A DNA stretch of 31,624 nucleotides from IMG/VR virus record IMGVR_UViG_3300006033_000080, positions 1-31,624 of that record; one strand, written 5' to 3'. The DNA is from a virus. Shown here in pieces: positions 5,370-29,606 of this stretch (position 1 is its first letter; each line of letters opens with the position of its first letter). The notes below the pieces were generated by a model. The model saw only the letters and a list, made by a program, of their open reading frames with translations, searched no databases and had not been told where the DNA came from. The position numbers were made by a program, and so were the translations under genes.

Positions 5370-6052
5370 GCGGTCTCGGCAACAGACGCGCTGGCAATTT
5401 CAAAACGGGTCAGCGCGTCCTTGTAGAGCATCTGGTCGTAGCGCGTGAGGGCGTCGATAATCCGATAGTCGTCCTCGCTCGGCTCATCCTCGTAGCGGCC
5501 TTTGTTCACTGTAGGGAGATCGGGTCCGAGAGACGGAACGATCTGCCGCAGGTGTGACAGGGATTCGTCCATCCGTTCGAAGATGCCGACGAACTCGAAA
5601 TACCGGGTGAGGTTCTCGCGGGCCTGAACGTAGGTGTTGTAGCCGACATTGCCGTGGCCGGGCTTGTTGGCTGTGCCGGCAATCAATCGGCAAAGGAAAT
5701 TGTCGAACTCCCAATGCCTGGCGTTCAAGAGGTAGTCGCGCATCGACGGGAATGTGCGCAGGTGATCCCCGACCGGGCTGCGGTCATTGTTCTTCAGGTG
5801 GTTGTAATGCGAGATCATCCGCCCCACCGGATCGCGAAGGAAGCAGGCGTAGCGCGGTTCCTTCGCGGCAATCTCGTGAACTCCGAACCGGTAGTGGCCG
5901 AAGATAATTTCCGTCTCGTCCGGGTAGTCGAAGCCGTGCCGAAAACCCTCCTCGTGAGGGTAGTGGAACGCGACGTTTGCGTCTGATGCTTTCAGAGCGC
6001 TTTTGAGCGACCCGCCTGCGGTCTTCGTGATGTGCATGAAAAACAGGGGCAT
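5366..6052 (-). CDS. Sulfotransferase-family protein (PAPS-dependent), phage cargo gene
   Basis: 228 residues. The N-terminus carries the 5'-phosphosulfate loop HITKTAGGSL (from residue 7), close to the HIPKTGGTSL signature of cytosolic and carbohydrate sulfotransferases. The 3'-phosphate site follows at residues 71-81 (FLRDPVGRMIS). FGHYRFG near residue 51 also fits this fold. The expected reaction is transfer of sulfate from PAPS to a sugar or other hydroxyl. The gene is alone on its strand between the tail-fibre and endolysin genes. It has its own ribosome site (GAGAAG) and a 71-bp divergent gap to the endolysin, so it is probably expressed independently. A surface-glycan target is an inference from its position next to the receptor-binding genes. 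Related loops also occur in glycosyl- and other transferases, so the exact substrate is open. Confidence 0.75.
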   Translation of the reverse strand: MPLFFMHITKTAGGSLKSALKASDANVAFHYPHEEGFRHGFDYPDETEIIFGHYRFGVHEIAAKEPRYACFLRDPVGRMISHYNHLKNNDRSPVGDHLRTFPSMRDYLLNARHWEFDNFLCRLIAGTANKPGHGNVGYNTYVQARENLTRYFEFVGIFERMDESLSHLRQIVPSLGPDLPTVNKGRYEDEPSEDDYRIIDALTRYDQMLYKDALTRFEIASASVAETA

Positions 6053-6123
6053 TGCACTTCTCTCGATTAGGCGCGGCGTTCTCGCACGTCTCCCGCCTCA
6101 CTTCAACACTTAAGGAAAACGAC

Positions 6124-6747
6124 ATGGACCTCGACAAGGGGTATACCCGGCTGATCATCGATACGTGCCTGAAGCACGGGCTGCTGAGGAACCAGGCGGC
6201 TTACGTCCTCGCGACGGCGTGGCACGAAACCGCCCACACGATGAAGCCCGTCCGTGAGTATGGCGGCGAAGCCTACCTCCGCAAGAAGAAATACTACCCC
6301 TACGTGGGAATGGGTTTCGTGCAGCTCACATGGCTGGAGAACTACAAGAAGGCCAGCAAGGAACTCGGCGTCGATTTCGTCAGCGACCCTAAGAAGCTTC
6401 TGGAGCCTCGCTACTCGGCTGAGATCCTTGTCATCGGCTCCCGTGACGGGTGGTTCACCGGCAAGAAGCTGTCCGACTATATCACGCTGGCGAAGTCGAA
6501 CTACGTGTCCGCGCGACGCATCATCAACGGCACCGACAAGGCCCTGCTCATCGCCGGCTATGCCAAGGAATACAATCTCGACCTGAAGCGCATTGGGTAT
6601 GGCGAGAAAGCCTTTCCCGCGCCCGTTCAGCCTTCCCCGGCTCCCAAGCCCGTCGAACCTGTCAAGCCCGCTCCTGTGCCAAGCACGGGCGGTTTCTGGG
6701 CGGTTCTATTCAAGATGCTGGGGAAGCTTTTCGCCCGAAAGACGTAG
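6124..6747 (+). CDS. Endolysin, GH19/chitinase-like muramidase with C-terminal membrane-like tail
   Basis: 207 residues from the ATG at 6124, which has AAGGAAAA upstream; an in-frame ATG at 6052 would read through the divergent promoter region and is less likely. WHETAH (residues 33-38, Glu35 probable catalytic acid), VREYGGEAYL and GFVQLTW followed by YKKAS are the hallmarks of GH19-like phage lysozymes. These cut the glycan strands of peptidoglycan. After residue ~163 comes a Pro-rich linker (PAPVQPSPAPKPVEP) and a short C-terminal segment, GGFWAVLFKMLGKLFARKT. That tail is hydrophobic with basic residues and looks like an amphipathic helix able to touch the membrane. No N-terminal signal or SAR segment is visible, so export through the neighbouring holin is expected. 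Confidence 0.85.
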   Translation: MDLDKGYTRLIIDTCLKHGLLRNQAAYVLATAWHETAHTMKPVREYGGEAYLRKKKYYPYVGMGFVQLTWLENYKKASKELGVDFVSDPKKLLEPRYSAEILVIGSRDGWFTGKKLSDYITLAKSNYVSARRIINGTDKALLIAGYAKEYNLDLKRIGYGEKAFPAPVQPSPAPKPVEPVKPAPVPSTGGFWAVLFKMLGKLFARKT

Positions 6748-7071: not shown

Positions 7072-7111
7072 CCTCAAACCATACCACATCCCTTCATCGG
7101 AGTGAACAGAA

Positions 7112-7312
7112 ATGGCTCCCATAATCCGCATTGTCCTACGCTATGCGACCTTCCCGCTGCTCTACTACGGCCTGATCAATGAGGGCGAGGCGTCTGACCT
7201 GATTGCCGACCCTGAGATTGCGCAGTGGGTCAGCCTCGCCGCTGGCGTCGTCGCGCCGATTGCTGCGGAGGGCTGGTATGTTCTCGCTCGCCGCATGGGG
7301 TGGGCGAAATGA
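7112..7312 (+). CDS. Small membrane protein of the lysis cassette
   Basis: 66 residues with GGAG before the ATG. One hydrophobic stretch covers residues 3-21 (PIIRIVLRYATFPLLYYGL) and a second covers about 38-58 (QWVSLAAGVVAPIAAEGWYVL). It is translationally coupled to the next gene (ATGA overlap), which is a holin-type protein, and follows the endolysin. A second holin, antiholin or pinholin-like partner is the natural guess, but no family motif confirms it. Confidence 0.7.
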   Translation: MAPIIRIVLRYATFPLLYYGLINEGEASDLIADPEIAQWVSLAAGVVAPIAAEGWYVLARRMGWAK

Positions 7313-7710
7313 TCGCCTCAATCGTCGCCAAGCTTCTCGGCTCTGTCGGCTTCGGCTTTGTCGACCGCGTTCTAGGCCATCTGGAGCGCAAGGCCGATTC
7401 CGAGAACGAACGTCGCAAGATCGATGCTGCGCGAGAGGCGTCATTCAATGCCGAAGCTGCTGGCGTCGTCAAGGCTGGGATGCAGTTCCCGATGTTTTGG
7501 GTGGCGTGGTCCATCGCCGCCGTCCCGACATGCATCTGGCACGGATGGGGGATGATGGACAGCACCTTGAACGGCGCGCTCCCTGACGTGGCCGCACTCC
7601 CGCCGCAGCTCAAGGAATATGCCGATATCGTCTTCGGCAACATCTTCTACTCAGGAGCTGCACTTGGCGGGGCACAGGTCATCGCTACCGCCATTCGAGG
7701 GCGCAAATAA
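7309..7710 (+). CDS. Holin, 3TM gene-transfer-agent type
   Basis: 133 residues from the ATG overlapping the previous stop. An N-terminal amphipathic segment (MIASIVAKLLGSVGFGFVDRVL) and a charged region rich in Glu/Arg/Lys lead to hydrophobic segments at about residues 62-78 (FPMFWVAWSIAAVPTCIW) and 110-128 (VFGNIFYSGAALGGAQVIA). The spacing and the FWVAW...PPQLKEY...FGNIF pattern match the GTA_holin_3TM type common in alphaproteobacterial phages and gene-transfer agents. It would make the inner-membrane holes that release the endolysin. Confidence 0.75.
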   Translation: MIASIVAKLLGSVGFGFVDRVLGHLERKADSENERRKIDAAREASFNAEAAGVVKAGMQFPMFWVAWSIAAVPTCIWHGWGMMDSTLNGALPDVAALPPQLKEYADIVFGNIFYSGAALGGAQVIATAIRGRK

Positions 7711-8424: not shown

Positions 8425-8625
8425 CTACCATATCCCCCGTCCTATCGCAACCTTCCCGAACTGGCGCGATAGCTCGTCTGCCGCCGCTGCCACGTCTTCA
8501 AGGATCGGAAGGTCGCCCTTCTCATAGCGGCGGATGGTGCGCTCGGACTTGCGGATTATTCGGCCCATCTCCGATTGAGATAGGCCGAGAGAAACGCGGG
8601 TGGCTTTGAACTCAGGACCGGTCAT
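8425..8625 (-). CDS. XRE-family helix-turn-helix regulator
   Basis: 66 residues from the ATG at 8625 with GGGAGG upstream. FKATRVSLGLSQSEMGRIIRK-SERTIRRYEKGD is a standard XRE helix-turn-helix (the recognition helix contains SERTIRRYE). The short C-terminal tail has no effector domain. It is the second gene of a two-gene leftward operon and overlaps the end of the first by 14 bases. A 19-bp palindrome upstream of the operon is a plausible target for autoregulation. Confidence 0.75.
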   Translation of the reverse strand: MTGPEFKATRVSLGLSQSEMGRIIRKSERTIRRYEKGDLPILEDVAAAADELSRQFGKVAIGRGIW

Positions 8626-8851
8626 CTTTGCCTCCCATCGCGGCCGCAATCTCTTCCGCAATGAAGGCCCGTAGGTGCTTCTGAACCTCCTCCGCCGCGC
8701 GCTCTTTCGCTTCGATATATCGGTATCCGTAATACCCCCAGCTATACCCATCGTAAGCTTCTCGGGCGGTGCGCTCTTCTGTGCTGGCGCTGGCGTAAGA
8801 GTCCATTGCCTCCAAAAGGCATTCGATCTTCAGAGTATCGCGCATTTCCAT
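8612..8851 (-). CDS. Small charged helical protein, partner of XRE regulator
   Basis: 79 residues from 8851, or 77 from 8845, where GGAG is better placed. Helical and acidic, with a Tyr-rich stretch (YDGYSWGYYGYRYIE) and a C-terminal helix (EEVQKHLRAFIAEEIAAAM). No known domain. It overlaps the XRE gene, so the two are probably made together. A toxin/antitoxin-like or anti-regulator partner cannot be excluded but is not supported by a motif. Confidence 0.6.
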   Translation of the reverse strand: MEMRDTLKIECLLEAMDSYASASTEERTAREAYDGYSWGYYGYRYIEAKERAAEEVQKHLRAFIAEEIAAAMGGKDDRS

Positions 8852-8895
8852 TCTCCCTTGGCAGGTGGGCGTAGCCCGTTCAATCCACCCAATAT

Positions 8896-8914
8896 CGGAC
8901 ATTCATGATGTCCG
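8896..8914. promoter_or_regulatory. Perfect 19-bp palindromic operator candidate
   Basis: CGGACAT, spacer TCATG, ATGTCCG: seven-base perfect arms. It lies about 45 bases upstream of the leftward XRE operon and about 60 bases before the structured non-coding block, so a protein bound here could control both directions. It is unlike the operators of the main immunity region (AC(A/T)AG-N4-CT(A/T)GT). Confidence 0.55.
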
Positions 8915-8975
8915 GTCAATCCCGAAAATATCGCAACCTTCCCGCTTCCAACGCACTGCGGATTCTGGTATAGAG

Positions 8976-9326
8976 GATGGGCGAGGCCCGTGAGGGCTAC
9001 TGTTACTGAGATGCGGGTTTGGGACCAGATCACCATTCTAGAACGGTGATCAGCCGAGTGCGCTGGGTTCGCAACCCGGTCAGCCCGCCTCGCACAAGTT
9101 CCCTGCGAATAGCAGGCACGAGTTGGAAGAAGCGGGGTTGGCTACCCGTTGGTTGGTAGCGCCTCGATATCGGAGCAACCGTCCCTGGCGGACGGAGCCT
9201 AGCTAGCTTGTTCCGGGCCTTCTTCCATTCATTCGCCATCCTAGATGGCACAGAGAAGCGAGGCGGTTAGTTTTGAGCACCGCTCCGGGATCGAGCGCTA
9301 AGCGCCGGTCGCCGCCTCGCTCACCA
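8976..9326 (+). ncRNA. Candidate structured non-coding RNA (~350 nt)
   Basis: No convincing gene on either strand, but many helices: GGCCC-GTGA-GGGCT (8985-8998, a GNRA-type tetraloop on the plus strand); GATCACC/GGTGATC (9028-9034/9045-9051); CTGGGTT/AACCCGG (9063-9069/9073-9079); CCTGC/GCAGG (9102-9106/9112-9116); a 9-bp helix TGGAAGAAG/CTTCTTCCA (9124-9132/9219-9227) enclosing GGTTG/CAACC, GCTACC/GGTAGC (9141-9146/9155-9160) and CCGTCC/GGACGG (9179-9184/9190-9195); GCCATC/GATGGC (9235-9240/9244-9249); and a 10-bp helix AGCGAGGCGG/CCGCCTCGCT (9257-9266/9312-9321). GCGAGGC recurs at 8981, so 8979-8985 could instead pair with 9316-9322 and close the whole molecule. TATAGA at 8969-8974 may be a -10 box, though the -35 is poor. 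The strand is inferred from the GNRA loop. It does not match tRNA, tmRNA or RNase P. Confidence 0.45.
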
Positions 9327-9435
9327 CCATCCAAACCACTCCCCCACTCCCCACCCTACCGCAAATACAAGTACTATCCCGACACGGAGAAGAGCGGAGG
9401 ACTCGGAACGGTGGGTGATCATGCGTCCGTCTCGG

Positions 9436-9627
9436 TCATGTGAGTTCTCCGGGAGGGGGTGAAAACGTCAATGGCCTGAGTTTTCCATCTTCATAAACCA
9501 GAGGCTCATGGTTGGGAGAGGTGAACAGGAATGCCCCGCCAAACCGCGCAATGGACCAAGGACCAGGTTCCGGCAAATCTGCGATATGTTTGATGCCTGA
9601 CCGGCGGATCGTCTCACTTCCCATCAT
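9436..9627 (-). CDS. Small hypothetical protein
   Basis: 63 residues starting MMGSETIRRSGIKHIADL; either of the two adjacent ATGs fits the GGAGG upstream. A compact beta-type pattern (GPWSIARFGGAFLFTSPNHEPLVYEDGKL) suggests a small folded domain. It overlaps the preceding gene's stop by 14 bases and ends the three-gene leftward set. Function unknown. Confidence 0.5.
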   Translation of the reverse strand: MMGSETIRRSGIKHIADLPEPGPWSIARFGGAFLFTSPNHEPLVYEDGKLRPLTFSPPPGELT

Positions 9628-9854: not shown

Positions 9855-10133
9855 TCATCCTCCATGAACGTTCGCCGAAGGGGAAACGGACTTCGCCATC
9901 AATCGCTCCAGAGGCGAAAGGTGCTTGACCGGAACCGCCGTGTCAGCCTTCACGAACCGGGAGAGGTAGGCGCGCGTTGCCTTGCTCCATACCTTCTTTC
10001 CCCATGACGTGCCGCCGTGAAGACGCCATGCGTTCTCCCTGAGCGCAGCCTTGCGGGTTTTGATGTCGGCGTCGGCCGGGAGGCTCTTGTCAATCTCAGC
10101 GATCAATCGATCTGCGCTGTCTCGCCACGTCAT
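9855..10133 (-). CDS. Conserved-looking small phage protein (TSWGKK motif)
   Basis: 92 residues from the ATG at 10133 with GGAGG upstream. A helical N-terminal region (ADRLIAEIDKSLPADADIKTRKAALRENA) leads to WRLHGGTSWGKKVWSKATRAYL. Proteins of this shape occur widely in phages without known function. It is the first gene of the three-gene leftward set and starts 14 bp from the inverted-repeat (attP-like) region, so its promoter must overlap those sites. Confidence 0.65.
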   Translation of the reverse strand: MTWRDSADRLIAEIDKSLPADADIKTRKAALRENAWRLHGGTSWGKKVWSKATRAYLSRFVKADTAVPVKHLSPLERLMAKSVSPSANVHGG

Positions 10134-10146
10134 CTCAGCCTCCAAG

Positions 10147-10223
10147 GTCCGTTACGTCGCGAGAATCCTTCAACCAAAACAACGGGTCTGACGAGTAACG
10201 GACTTTCAAGTAACAGGTTGAAG
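10147..10223. other. attP: attP candidate: interlaced inverted repeats beside integrase
   Basis: Two inverted-repeat pairs interleave: GTCCGTTAC (10147-10155) with GTAACGGAC (10195-10203), and CTTCAACC (10168-10175) with GGTTGAAG (10216-10223). The offset is 21 bp on both sides, two helical turns, as expected for protein-binding sites on one DNA face. The block lies just past the integrase stop codon, the usual position for attP arm sites. The core crossover sequence cannot be identified without the bacterial site. No tRNA 3' end is visible here. Confidence 0.5.
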
Positions 10224-10265
10224 ATATTACTCTATCCTACTCCTGCACCTATTCAAATGCAAGAA

Positions 10266-11360
10266 TTACGCCGTTGATTTCACTATCTTTTCAGGGCCGA
10301 AGCCCGAACCTTGTTTTGGGTCCGTGACGAAGCTGTTCGCAATCCGTTCGGATGCGCCACGCGCCAGCGCGAGCTTGTCAGCTTCCTTGGTGTAGAGTTC
10401 GGCCATCTCGATCCGAGACCAGCCATACATTGCCATGAGTTGCCGCGCTGTCGCGCCGCGCTCTGCCGCGATTGTCGCCCCGGCTTTTCGAAGCCCATGA
10501 GCGGCGCATCGTTTCGGCAAGCCTGCCTCCCGGCAGCGTTCCTTGAACCAATTCCCAAATGACTGCCCCGACGCGAACGGCCGTCCCGTGGCCGACGTGA
10601 GAAATGCGAGGTCTCCGGTCTTCGTCGCCTTGATCGACGTGTCCAGTTCGTCGCATATCGTGAGGTGAACCGTTGTGTTCGTCTTGGTCGTTGACAGTTG
10701 CAGCACGCCGTCCCTGACGTGCTGACGCCCGGCGCGGATCACATCGGATCTGCGCAGACCAAGGAAGAGCAGAAGGTCTATCGCCAGCCGCGCTTTCGTC
10801 CCGACTGCGTGATGCGCGCGGAACTGCTCGACTTCCTCAACGGTCCATGCGTGAAAGCCGGTGCTCACCACCTTGAACGTGTCCACTCCCTCGCAAGGGT
10901 TCTTCTCCATATGGCCGGACTTCACCGCCCACTGGAACATTTGCGACAGGACGATCAGCGCATTGTTCGCGGCGTGGGGTGATGCGCGCTTGGCGTCGGT
11001 CGCCCCTTGAATGTGCTTGCGCTCAATCTTGGCGAATGGCTTTTCCCCTTGGGTCTTGCAGACGGAAGTTAGAATGTTGTCGCGAAGGCGGCGCGTCGAA
11101 GGCTTATAACTGGAAAACCGGGCGCTTTCCTTGTATCGTGCAACAAGCCAAGCAAGGCTGCGCTTGTCGTCAACTGGTCTAGGCTTCGGCTTCTCTCCTG
11201 CGAGAGCTAGGCGGTAGGCATCCCAAAATTCAGGTGTGCCATAGGTGTCGGGAAGGCGCACATATTCCTTGCCGCGCCGAAATGCCCATGTCCAGGTTCC
11301 GTGTCGAGACTTCTCATGGCGGATATAGACGGGGCGATTGCGGGGCATGTCATCGGTCAA
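10266..11360 (-). CDS. int: Tyrosine-family phage integrase
   Basis: 364 residues from a TTG at 11360 overlapping the previous stop; an ATG four codons in (11348) is equally possible. An N-terminal arm-binding region is followed by a SAM-like core-binding domain (about residues 66-155) and the catalytic domain. The active-site set is complete: Arg203 in GLRRSD, Lys226 in STTKTN, His288-x-x-Arg291 in HGLRK, Trp314 in the usual second-His position, and nucleophile Tyr323 in ELYTK. It would catalyse site-specific insertion and excision of the phage. It closes the leftward gene array and adjoins the attP candidate. Confidence 0.95.
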   Translation of the reverse strand: MTDDMPRNRPVYIRHEKSRHGTWTWAFRRGKEYVRLPDTYGTPEFWDAYRLALAGEKPKPRPVDDKRSLAWLVARYKESARFSSYKPSTRRLRDNILTSVCKTQGEKPFAKIERKHIQGATDAKRASPHAANNALIVLSQMFQWAVKSGHMEKNPCEGVDTFKVVSTGFHAWTVEEVEQFRAHHAVGTKARLAIDLLLFLGLRRSDVIRAGRQHVRDGVLQLSTTKTNTTVHLTICDELDTSIKATKTGDLAFLTSATGRPFASGQSFGNWFKERCREAGLPKRCAAHGLRKAGATIAAERGATARQLMAMYGWSRIEMAELYTKEADKLALARGASERIANSFVTDPKQGSGFGPEKIVKSTA

Positions 11361-24963: not shown

Positions 24964-25146
24964 TCACTCATCCGCCCACCATCTGCGCGACAGGCGAGAC
25001 GCGATCTCGCCCAGCGCTTCGAATGGATCAGAGCTGGAATCCGTGGCTGGTGCGTCCAGCCAGTTATCATTCGCCGCAAGCCTCATCGGCCTGCGGTTCC
25101 GCGCAACGCCCTGTCTTGCCTGGCAGCGGGGAGGGTGTCTGCGCAT
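24964..25146 (-). CDS. Small leftward gene inside the rightward early operon
   Basis: 60 residues from the ATG at 25146, preceded by GAAAGGAC. Its stop directly abuts the stop of the GNAT-like gene, a clean tail-to-tail fit. RLAANDNWLDAPATDSSSDP followed by FEALGEIASRLSRRWWADE reads like a real C-terminal helix, and the 'AANDN' start occurs in small rhizobial proteins. The competing plus-strand frame over the same bases looks random. Its purpose is unknown; an antisense RNA effect on the early operon is possible. Confidence 0.5.
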   Translation of the reverse strand: MRRHPPRCQARQGVARNRRPMRLAANDNWLDAPATDSSSDPFEALGEIASRLSRRWWADE

Positions 25147-25209
25147 CGGTGAAGTCCTTTCGTCCGGCTGTTGTTCACGAGAGCAACAGTGACGGAAGGA
25201 ACGTCGGAA

Positions 25210-28110: not shown

Positions 28111-28410
28111 ATGTTGGACCAGGCATCAGCCATAGCCGACAAAGCAGCGGCCGTCGTTCACAAGATGGTCGCGAAAGAGGTCGCCGACATCATCGAAAGC
28201 GAGCGGCGTGTGAGCCTCCTGATCGAGCGCGACAAGAGCATTGATCGCGAGATCATGAACGCCTGCATTGAGGTCGGAATCGCGGTCGACAAGTTCAAGC
28301 AGGCGAAATTCACGGGCGGCAGTGCGGAGATCCGGGCGAGGGAGAAGCTGGAGCGCGAGGCAGATCGGCTCCAAGCGATTCTGAGGCAACACAAGAAGAT
28401 GCCGCGATGA
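28111..28410 (+). CDS. Small helical hypothetical protein
   Basis: 99 residues from the ATG at 28111 (GGAG eight bases upstream). Helical over almost its full length (DKAAAVVHKMVAKEVADIIE, ERDKSIDREIMNACIEVG, REKLEREADRLQAILRQHKK), likely a coiled-coil dimer. Basic C-terminus. No family recognised. Confidence 0.55.
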   Translation: MLDQASAIADKAAAVVHKMVAKEVADIIESERRVSLLIERDKSIDREIMNACIEVGIAVDKFKQAKFTGGSAEIRAREKLEREADRLQAILRQHKKMPR

Positions 28411-29173: not shown

Positions 29174-29606
29174 AGTTAACCAGCAATAGGTTAATGTGCC
29201 GTGCAGGTGATTTGCATGGCGACAGGGGAAACCCCGGCCTACAGCTGAGATGTTCACCGCTCAGCGCATGGCGTCATATTGCCTCAGGATGGGAATACAC
29301 GCCAGCCAAACCCAGCGCCCACGTGCGGCGCGCGTCAGCGGTTTATTGCCAGAGTTTCGCGCTTCGGCGCAACGATATGCGAGGCGGAAGACCCAAGGCC
29401 AACGGCAAGTCGGCAATAGCCCGAGCAACTTGCGTCCGCACCCAACGGGTATCCCAGTATGAAAAGCCGGAAGTCGCGCCCCGGCCCTCGCACACTTTGC
29501 CGGCCCTGTCCCATCGCTCTCCAGAGATGCCTAACTCCAGGGGACATGCGCGCGGGCAAGCCTCATCAGAACAGACCATTCGCGCGCTCAGACCGCCGAG
29601 GGTGAC
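29174..29606 (+). other. Non-coding, structured region before the terminase genes
   Basis: 433 bases. Reading frames here look random on both strands. Hairpins: TTAACC/GGTTAA (29176-29181/29189-29194), GCTGAG/CTCAGC (29244-29249/29260-29265), and GCGC-TTCG-GCGC (29359-29370) with a UUCG tetraloop. CCGGCCCT is repeated at 29481-29488 and 29500-29507. It is the expected position of a cos or pac site and of a late promoter or antitermination RNA; which of these it is cannot be told from one sequence. Confidence 0.4.

Follow-up and report, generated by a model that had tools for sequence, protein, structure and literature searches.

The window analysed here is the whole of a virus record, 31,624 bases long, with tail-fibre genes at its left end and the large terminase gene at its right end; the contig is a temperate phage, probably of an alphaproteobacterial host. 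The block under study (8976-9326) occupies the lysis-integrase interval, between genes that on both sides run leftward (Table 1), and falls inside the longest non-coding gap predicted in the contig by hexamer-based gene calling (8852-9613, 762 bp). The end of the HTH gene recurs as an exact 16-bp direct repeat (8443-8458 and 8929-8944), the second copy lying immediately 5′ of the putative promoter of the block. Another gap, 10107-10265, adjoins the integrase stop codon; the motif GTAAC is repeated in it, and 95 nt of it (10132-10226) are structured (z of -4.5). The gap lies about 800 bp from the block and, judging from gene order, is probably attP.

The sequence-only reading that drew attention to the block had found no convincing gene in it, and hexamer usage agrees. 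Its ORFs all have negative scores (8830-9036, -8.6; 9030-9251, -1.7; 9273-9443, -1.4), compared with 20 to 28 for the flanking genes, and a Pfam search of the block matched no gene family. A protein gene in the block was rejected on these grounds. The same reading held that nearly everything else in the genome is coding. The block's gap is indeed the longest, but there is a second large one, 29174-29606, 5′ of the small terminase gene, which looks non-coding and is not structured (z of 0.2). An ORF spans this second gap, yet its hexamer score is -23. Within the gap lies GGTGATTTGCA; the corresponding region of a sister phage, L015, has its reverse complement, TGCAAATCACC, and the gap might be a packaging site. 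In L013 (3566-3690) and L015 (3905-4030), the non-coding region 5′ of the small terminase gene has a conserved start that reads ...CGACTGATTGGGGGCC(GAAA or TTCG)GGC..., so that GNRA and UUCG tetraloops interchange.

Folding of both strands against shuffled controls showed the block to be more stable than chance. The plus strand reached -158.8 kcal/mol (z of -3.37; 1 of 100 shuffles as stable) and the minus strand -148.9 kcal/mol (z of -2.92; none of 100). Ranked among 122 tiles of 351 nt covering the contig, the block came second on the plus strand and first on the minus strand. At the 160-nt scale it is no outlier, with plus-strand z values of about -0.9 to -1.8, whereas in a local-fold scan no other part of the block is as significant as the core domain, for which the minus strand gave a z of -4.01. 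Because the 160-nt windows are ordinary and the core reaches a z of about -4.3, the predicted fold signal is one of long-range closed architecture together with the core at 9085-9267. For the proposed RNA itself z ranged from -2.8 to -4.2, with none of 100 shuffles as stable, but z moves between about -1 and -5 depending on the exact ends and the shuffle number, so no single figure should be over-read. The strongest 160-nt fold of the contig is elsewhere, at 25041-25200; either strand has a z near -4.6 there, and the stretch overlaps the predicted gap 24964-25188.

The dense helices described from the letters are present in the plus-strand fold of the block, along with further ones not listed in Table 1. 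In the favoured fold (fold A), the outer and inner stems close a single structure; its pair probabilities, 0.66 to 1.0 across the outer stem as well, are mostly above 0.9, and it accounts for nearly all of the ensemble. An alternative (fold B) pairs 8981-8987 with 9087-9093 and 9257-9266 with 9312-9321 to give two local domains, at -154.4 kcal/mol, 4.4 kcal/mol above fold A. The GNRA hairpin and the 10-bp stem, both prominent in the sequence-only description, exist but belong to the alternative fold. Likewise, the GCGAGGC/GCCTCGC arms can swap partners as proposed. This swap may work as a switch, but the modelling, which almost fully favours one fold, gives no indication of it.

Table 1. Genes, signals and predicted RNA elements at the locus (fold A, favoured; fold B, alternative)
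Feature	Position	Strand	Remarks
Endolysin	6052-6747
Small leftward genes	8851-8425		include HTH regulator, 8425-8751
-35 candidate TTCCAA	8946-8951	+	weak; 17-nt spacing to -10
Extended -10 promoter-like element TGGTATAGA	8966-8974	+	ends just before block
Outer stem, fold A	8979-8987:9314-9322	+	8 Watson-Crick pairs and 1 G-U
Proposed structured non-coding RNA	8980-9322	+	~343 nt; from fold z and non-coding hexamer usage
GNRA (GUGA) hairpin, alternative fold	8986-8997	+
Hairpin 9028-9051	9028-9034:9045-9051	+	7 bp; 10-nt loop (9035-9044) with palindrome UUCUAGAA
Hairpin 9062-9080	9062-9069:9073-9080	+	8 pairs (two G-U); CGC loop
Core domain	9085-9267	+	local-fold z -4.33
Inner closing stem, 9 bp	9085-9093:9258-9266	+	pair probabilities 0.91-1.0
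Hairpin	9102-9106:9112-9116	+	fold prediction
Segment shared with prophage G032	9223-9260	+	UUCCAUUCAUUC, hairpin 9235-9240:9244-9249, then ACA(G/C)AGA(A/U)GCG
Hairpin common with G032	9235-9240:9244-9249	+	fold prediction
Local 10-bp stem, fold B	9257-9266:9312-9321	+
Rut-like C-rich, G-poor tract	9323-9372	+	26 C, 2 G; directly 3′ of outer stem
Integrase	10266-11360	-

Several features point to the plus strand, as had been assumed: its fold has the lower energy and more G-U pairs (17 against 8 in the minus fold), a unique extended -10 element lies 5′ of it and the strongest rut-like tract of the contig lies 3′. The pattern TGNTATARA occurs only once on the two strands of the 31.6 kb together, as TGGTATAGA, where 0.19 occurrences would be expected. 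From this site transcription would start near the beginning of the outer stem, at about 8980-8981. The evidence for a promoter is suggestive only, because the site had been seen before the pattern was chosen and the -35 candidate is weak; a stricter -35/-10 scan of the contig did not list the site. At the other end, no plus-strand 60-mer of the contig exceeds 9310-9369 in C minus G (+30, about 5 SD). A scan for intrinsic terminators found none at the block, and we propose the tract at 9323-9372 as a region of Rho-dependent termination. Both signals were sought once the block was known; read as such from the sequence, they are two independent plus-specific marks at ends defined by the fold.

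The block matched none of the RNA families searched. A search of 8850-9480 with the 4227 models of Rfam 15 gave no match even at E<=5, and covariance models including ROOL, GOLLD, OLE, HEARO and group I/II introns gave none at gathering or at E<=5. ARAGORN detected no tRNA or tmRNA, permuted tmRNA included; a relaxed run returned only candidates of low quality that overlapped one another, none with an identified tag. The earlier judgment that the block is not a tRNA, tmRNA or RNase P is thus supported. It does share with tmRNA a length of about 350 nt and a stem joining the 5′ and 3′ ends that is followed by ACCA (9323-9326), but it has no T arm, tag frame, ARAGORN match or Rfam match, and the ACCA, being part of a longer C-rich run, is probably a coincidence. 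The phi29 packaging RNA (pRNA), of about 174 nt, is a phage RNA that multimerizes through loops, its intermolecular loops being complementary rather than self-palindromic; the block differs from it in having no Rfam match and in the type of phage. ROOL and GOLLD, two long structured RNAs of phages and prophages whose function is unknown, form assemblies by kissing-loop contacts (PMC12286853). They measure about 660 nt and over 800 nt, compared with ~343 nt here, their models do not match, and this contig, unlike their settings, has no tRNA cluster; the block resembles them only in kind.

Nor did homology searches recover the block as a whole. Phages yielded no DNA homologue and plasmids a single 37-nt match at chance level. 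In 385 alphaproteobacterial genomes there were only short matches, mostly to the 3′ end of the block, judged to be chance in GC-rich coding sequence; the best of them (L148) falls in a long ORF and was likewise judged to be chance. Exact patterns from the block had no match in viral_contigs. A full-length homologue is therefore absent from the phages, plasmids, 385 alphaproteobacterial genomes and related phage records searched. The largest part common to any relative found is ~40-50 nt, in one relative, and for this reason the fold as a whole is without covariation support.

That relative is a related prophage, G032 (IMGVR_UViG_2919583302_000001), whose tail fibre is 77 to 79% and integrase 57% identical to those of the contig. 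It matches 9212-9260 over 38 to 49 nt. As good a match to G032 arose in 2 of 500 shuffled blocks, and across all 40 records first searched we estimate that about 0.1 such matches would be expected before pairing is considered. The shared hairpin carries four stem substitutions, and all six pairs are kept; two of the six are changed on both sides, from G-C to A-U and from A-U to G-C. Given four stem substitutions, the chance of keeping all pairs is 0.013. This is the sole covariation available, one hairpin in one relative. The last bases of the flanking UUCCAUUCAUUC are unpaired in the predicted fold.

The G032 copy sits elsewhere in its genome: it immediately follows an HNH gene in the non-coding region 5′ of the small terminase gene. 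The remainder of the block's fold is not recognizable there. The gap at the lysis end of G032, the analogous position, is not structured (z of -0.56). A model of the shared segment (R1) found only the block and G032 copies, and no third, over the phage records searched, and it found nothing over 297 genomes, a set without a positive control and so a weak test. A match of R1 in L013 (E of 3) was treated as unproven. HNH-gene relatives of G032 have no copy of the shared hairpin. An RNA split by the HNH gene in G032 is not supported, as the joined flanks gain no extra pairing energy (-10.2 against a shuffled mean of -10.5). The HNH protein (L137, 1391-2002), encoded just 5′ of the small terminase gene, has an N-terminal zinc finger and could act either in homing, as an endonuclease, or in packaging.

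The computed features of the block are its structure, the absence of coding, the promoter-like and rut-like signals and one conserved hairpin. On these, we infer that the 343-base block beside the integrase gene probably encodes a new phage non-coding RNA. We hold with moderate confidence that the block is transcribed from the plus strand as a unit of its own, giving a structured, functional RNA of ~343 nt, and with much lower confidence any particular function. Transcription would start at the extended -10 promoter on the plus strand, the RNA would fold into one closed, multi-branched structure, and Rho-dependent termination would follow in the C-rich tract after 9322. The product would most likely be a stable trans-acting scaffold that presents the conserved hairpin, with UUCCAUUCAUUC single-stranded beside it, to a partner, either a protein or another RNA, and two copies could perhaps dimerize through the palindromic UUCUAGAA loop. 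A more elaborate version would make the block the founder of a new integrase-proximal RNA class, with one closed fold, a UUCUAGAA-loop dimer, a swap between closed and two-domain forms affecting lysogeny or lysis, and G032 as a relocated relative; we regard it as quite improbable.

Other explanations account for part of these observations. The block may be structured but non-functional or decaying GC-rich intergenic DNA, with internal repeats (the two GCGAGGC/GCCTCGC copies) left by recombination. The lack of any full-length homologue, the unremarkable z at short scale and the 16-bp exact copy of the neighboring regulator gene end just upstream would all fit such a history, as would the relative G033, which has no comparable structured gap at the lysis-integrase position. 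However, the promoter-like and rut-like signals, both strand-specific and one at each end, and a conserved hairpin with compensatory change argue against it, and we consider it possible but unlikely.

Alternatively, the inverted repeats might act as DNA, the block being an operator or another protein-binding region near the integrase gene. The hairpin at 9028-9051 is, as DNA, a 24-bp dyad, GATCACCATTCTAGAACGGTGATC, that looks operator-like, the contig has 11 copies of its half-site GGTGATC compared with 5.6 expected, and the block folds well on both strands. Yet the dyad is single-copy in the contig within three mismatches and absent from viral_contigs, many of the helices are long-range and contain G-U pairs, more of them on the plus strand, and the probable attP is the integrase-adjacent gap rather than the block. 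A DNA element thus appears improbable.

We also compared the block with skipping-rope RNA (RF02924), of which it could be a divergent member or a derivative. Both would be phage-associated small structured RNAs with GAGAUG before a closing arm: in the block, GAGAUGCGGG at 9008-9017 precedes a possible stem (9013-9017:9084-9088) that would abut an outer stem, and AGAGAA/ACAGAU after the shared hairpin recalls the P2-GAGAU junction. Furthermore, sister phages (L014, L015 and L020; terminase 74% identical) carry a bona fide skipping-rope RNA (50.8 bits) 5′ of the small terminase gene, the place of the G032 hairpin copy. Against this, the RF02924 model gives no match in the block at E<=5, and its only match in the contig, at 28263-28327, scores 11.4 bits, far below the gathering cut-off of 36.7 bits. 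Skipping-rope RNAs are 80 to 107 nt long, compared with ~343 nt, and their conserved hairpin 1 (5 bp, GG loop, two nt after the outer stem), 2-nt linker and kissing-loop contact are all missing here; by inspection against the RF02924 consensus and an alignment (A3) that is misaligned in the third arm and outer stem, there is only the GUGA-tetraloop hairpin directly after the stem. In addition, GAGAU (9008-9012) with its stem is possible only in an alternative fold, 5.3 kcal/mol worse than the favoured one. With no model match, no first hairpin and the needed stems disfavoured, we rejected membership and regard kinship of either sort as very improbable. A minus-strand leader or RNA of the leftward genes at 8851-8425 is hardly credible: the genes on both sides run leftward and the minus fold is nearly as good, but a sigma-70-like promoter for those genes lies at 8919-8891 (minus), downstream of the block, and the rut-like and extended -10 signals fit the plus strand.

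The comparison yielded several observations on skipping-rope RNA itself. In a virus contig (L206) it lies immediately 5′ of a permuted tmRNA (the two at 7076-7165 and 7171-7510), in Caulobacter phage CcrBL10 (L208, 1494-1590) it follows tRNA-Gly by a few nt within a tRNA array, and in CcrColossus a short skipping-rope-like match, below the Rfam cut-off, falls between the lysis genes and a TROVE/Ro60-like gene. The RF02924 consensus runs from the outer stem through 2 nt, a 5-bp arm with a 9-nt loop, 1 nt and the middle arm to 4 nt, a second 5-bp arm and, with 0 nt between, back to the outer stem. Set beside a tRNA model, this arm order and these linker lengths equal those of the cloverleaf. By this analogy skipping-rope is possibly a tRNA-like RNA, whose reported pseudoknot could be a contact of the D-loop/T-loop kind.

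Returning to an independent plus-strand RNA at the block, phage RNA candidates have been catalogued computationally in large numbers, so that an orphan candidate is not rare, and pending proof of transcription this one is of an ordinary kind, though of interest. Proof of a transcript would add one more to the orphan structured RNAs of phages that none of the 4227 Rfam models covers, and with strand, start and end all predicted, a simple experiment could test for it. Such a transcript would also imply that in these phages fast-evolving structured RNAs lie beside both the terminase and the integrase genes.
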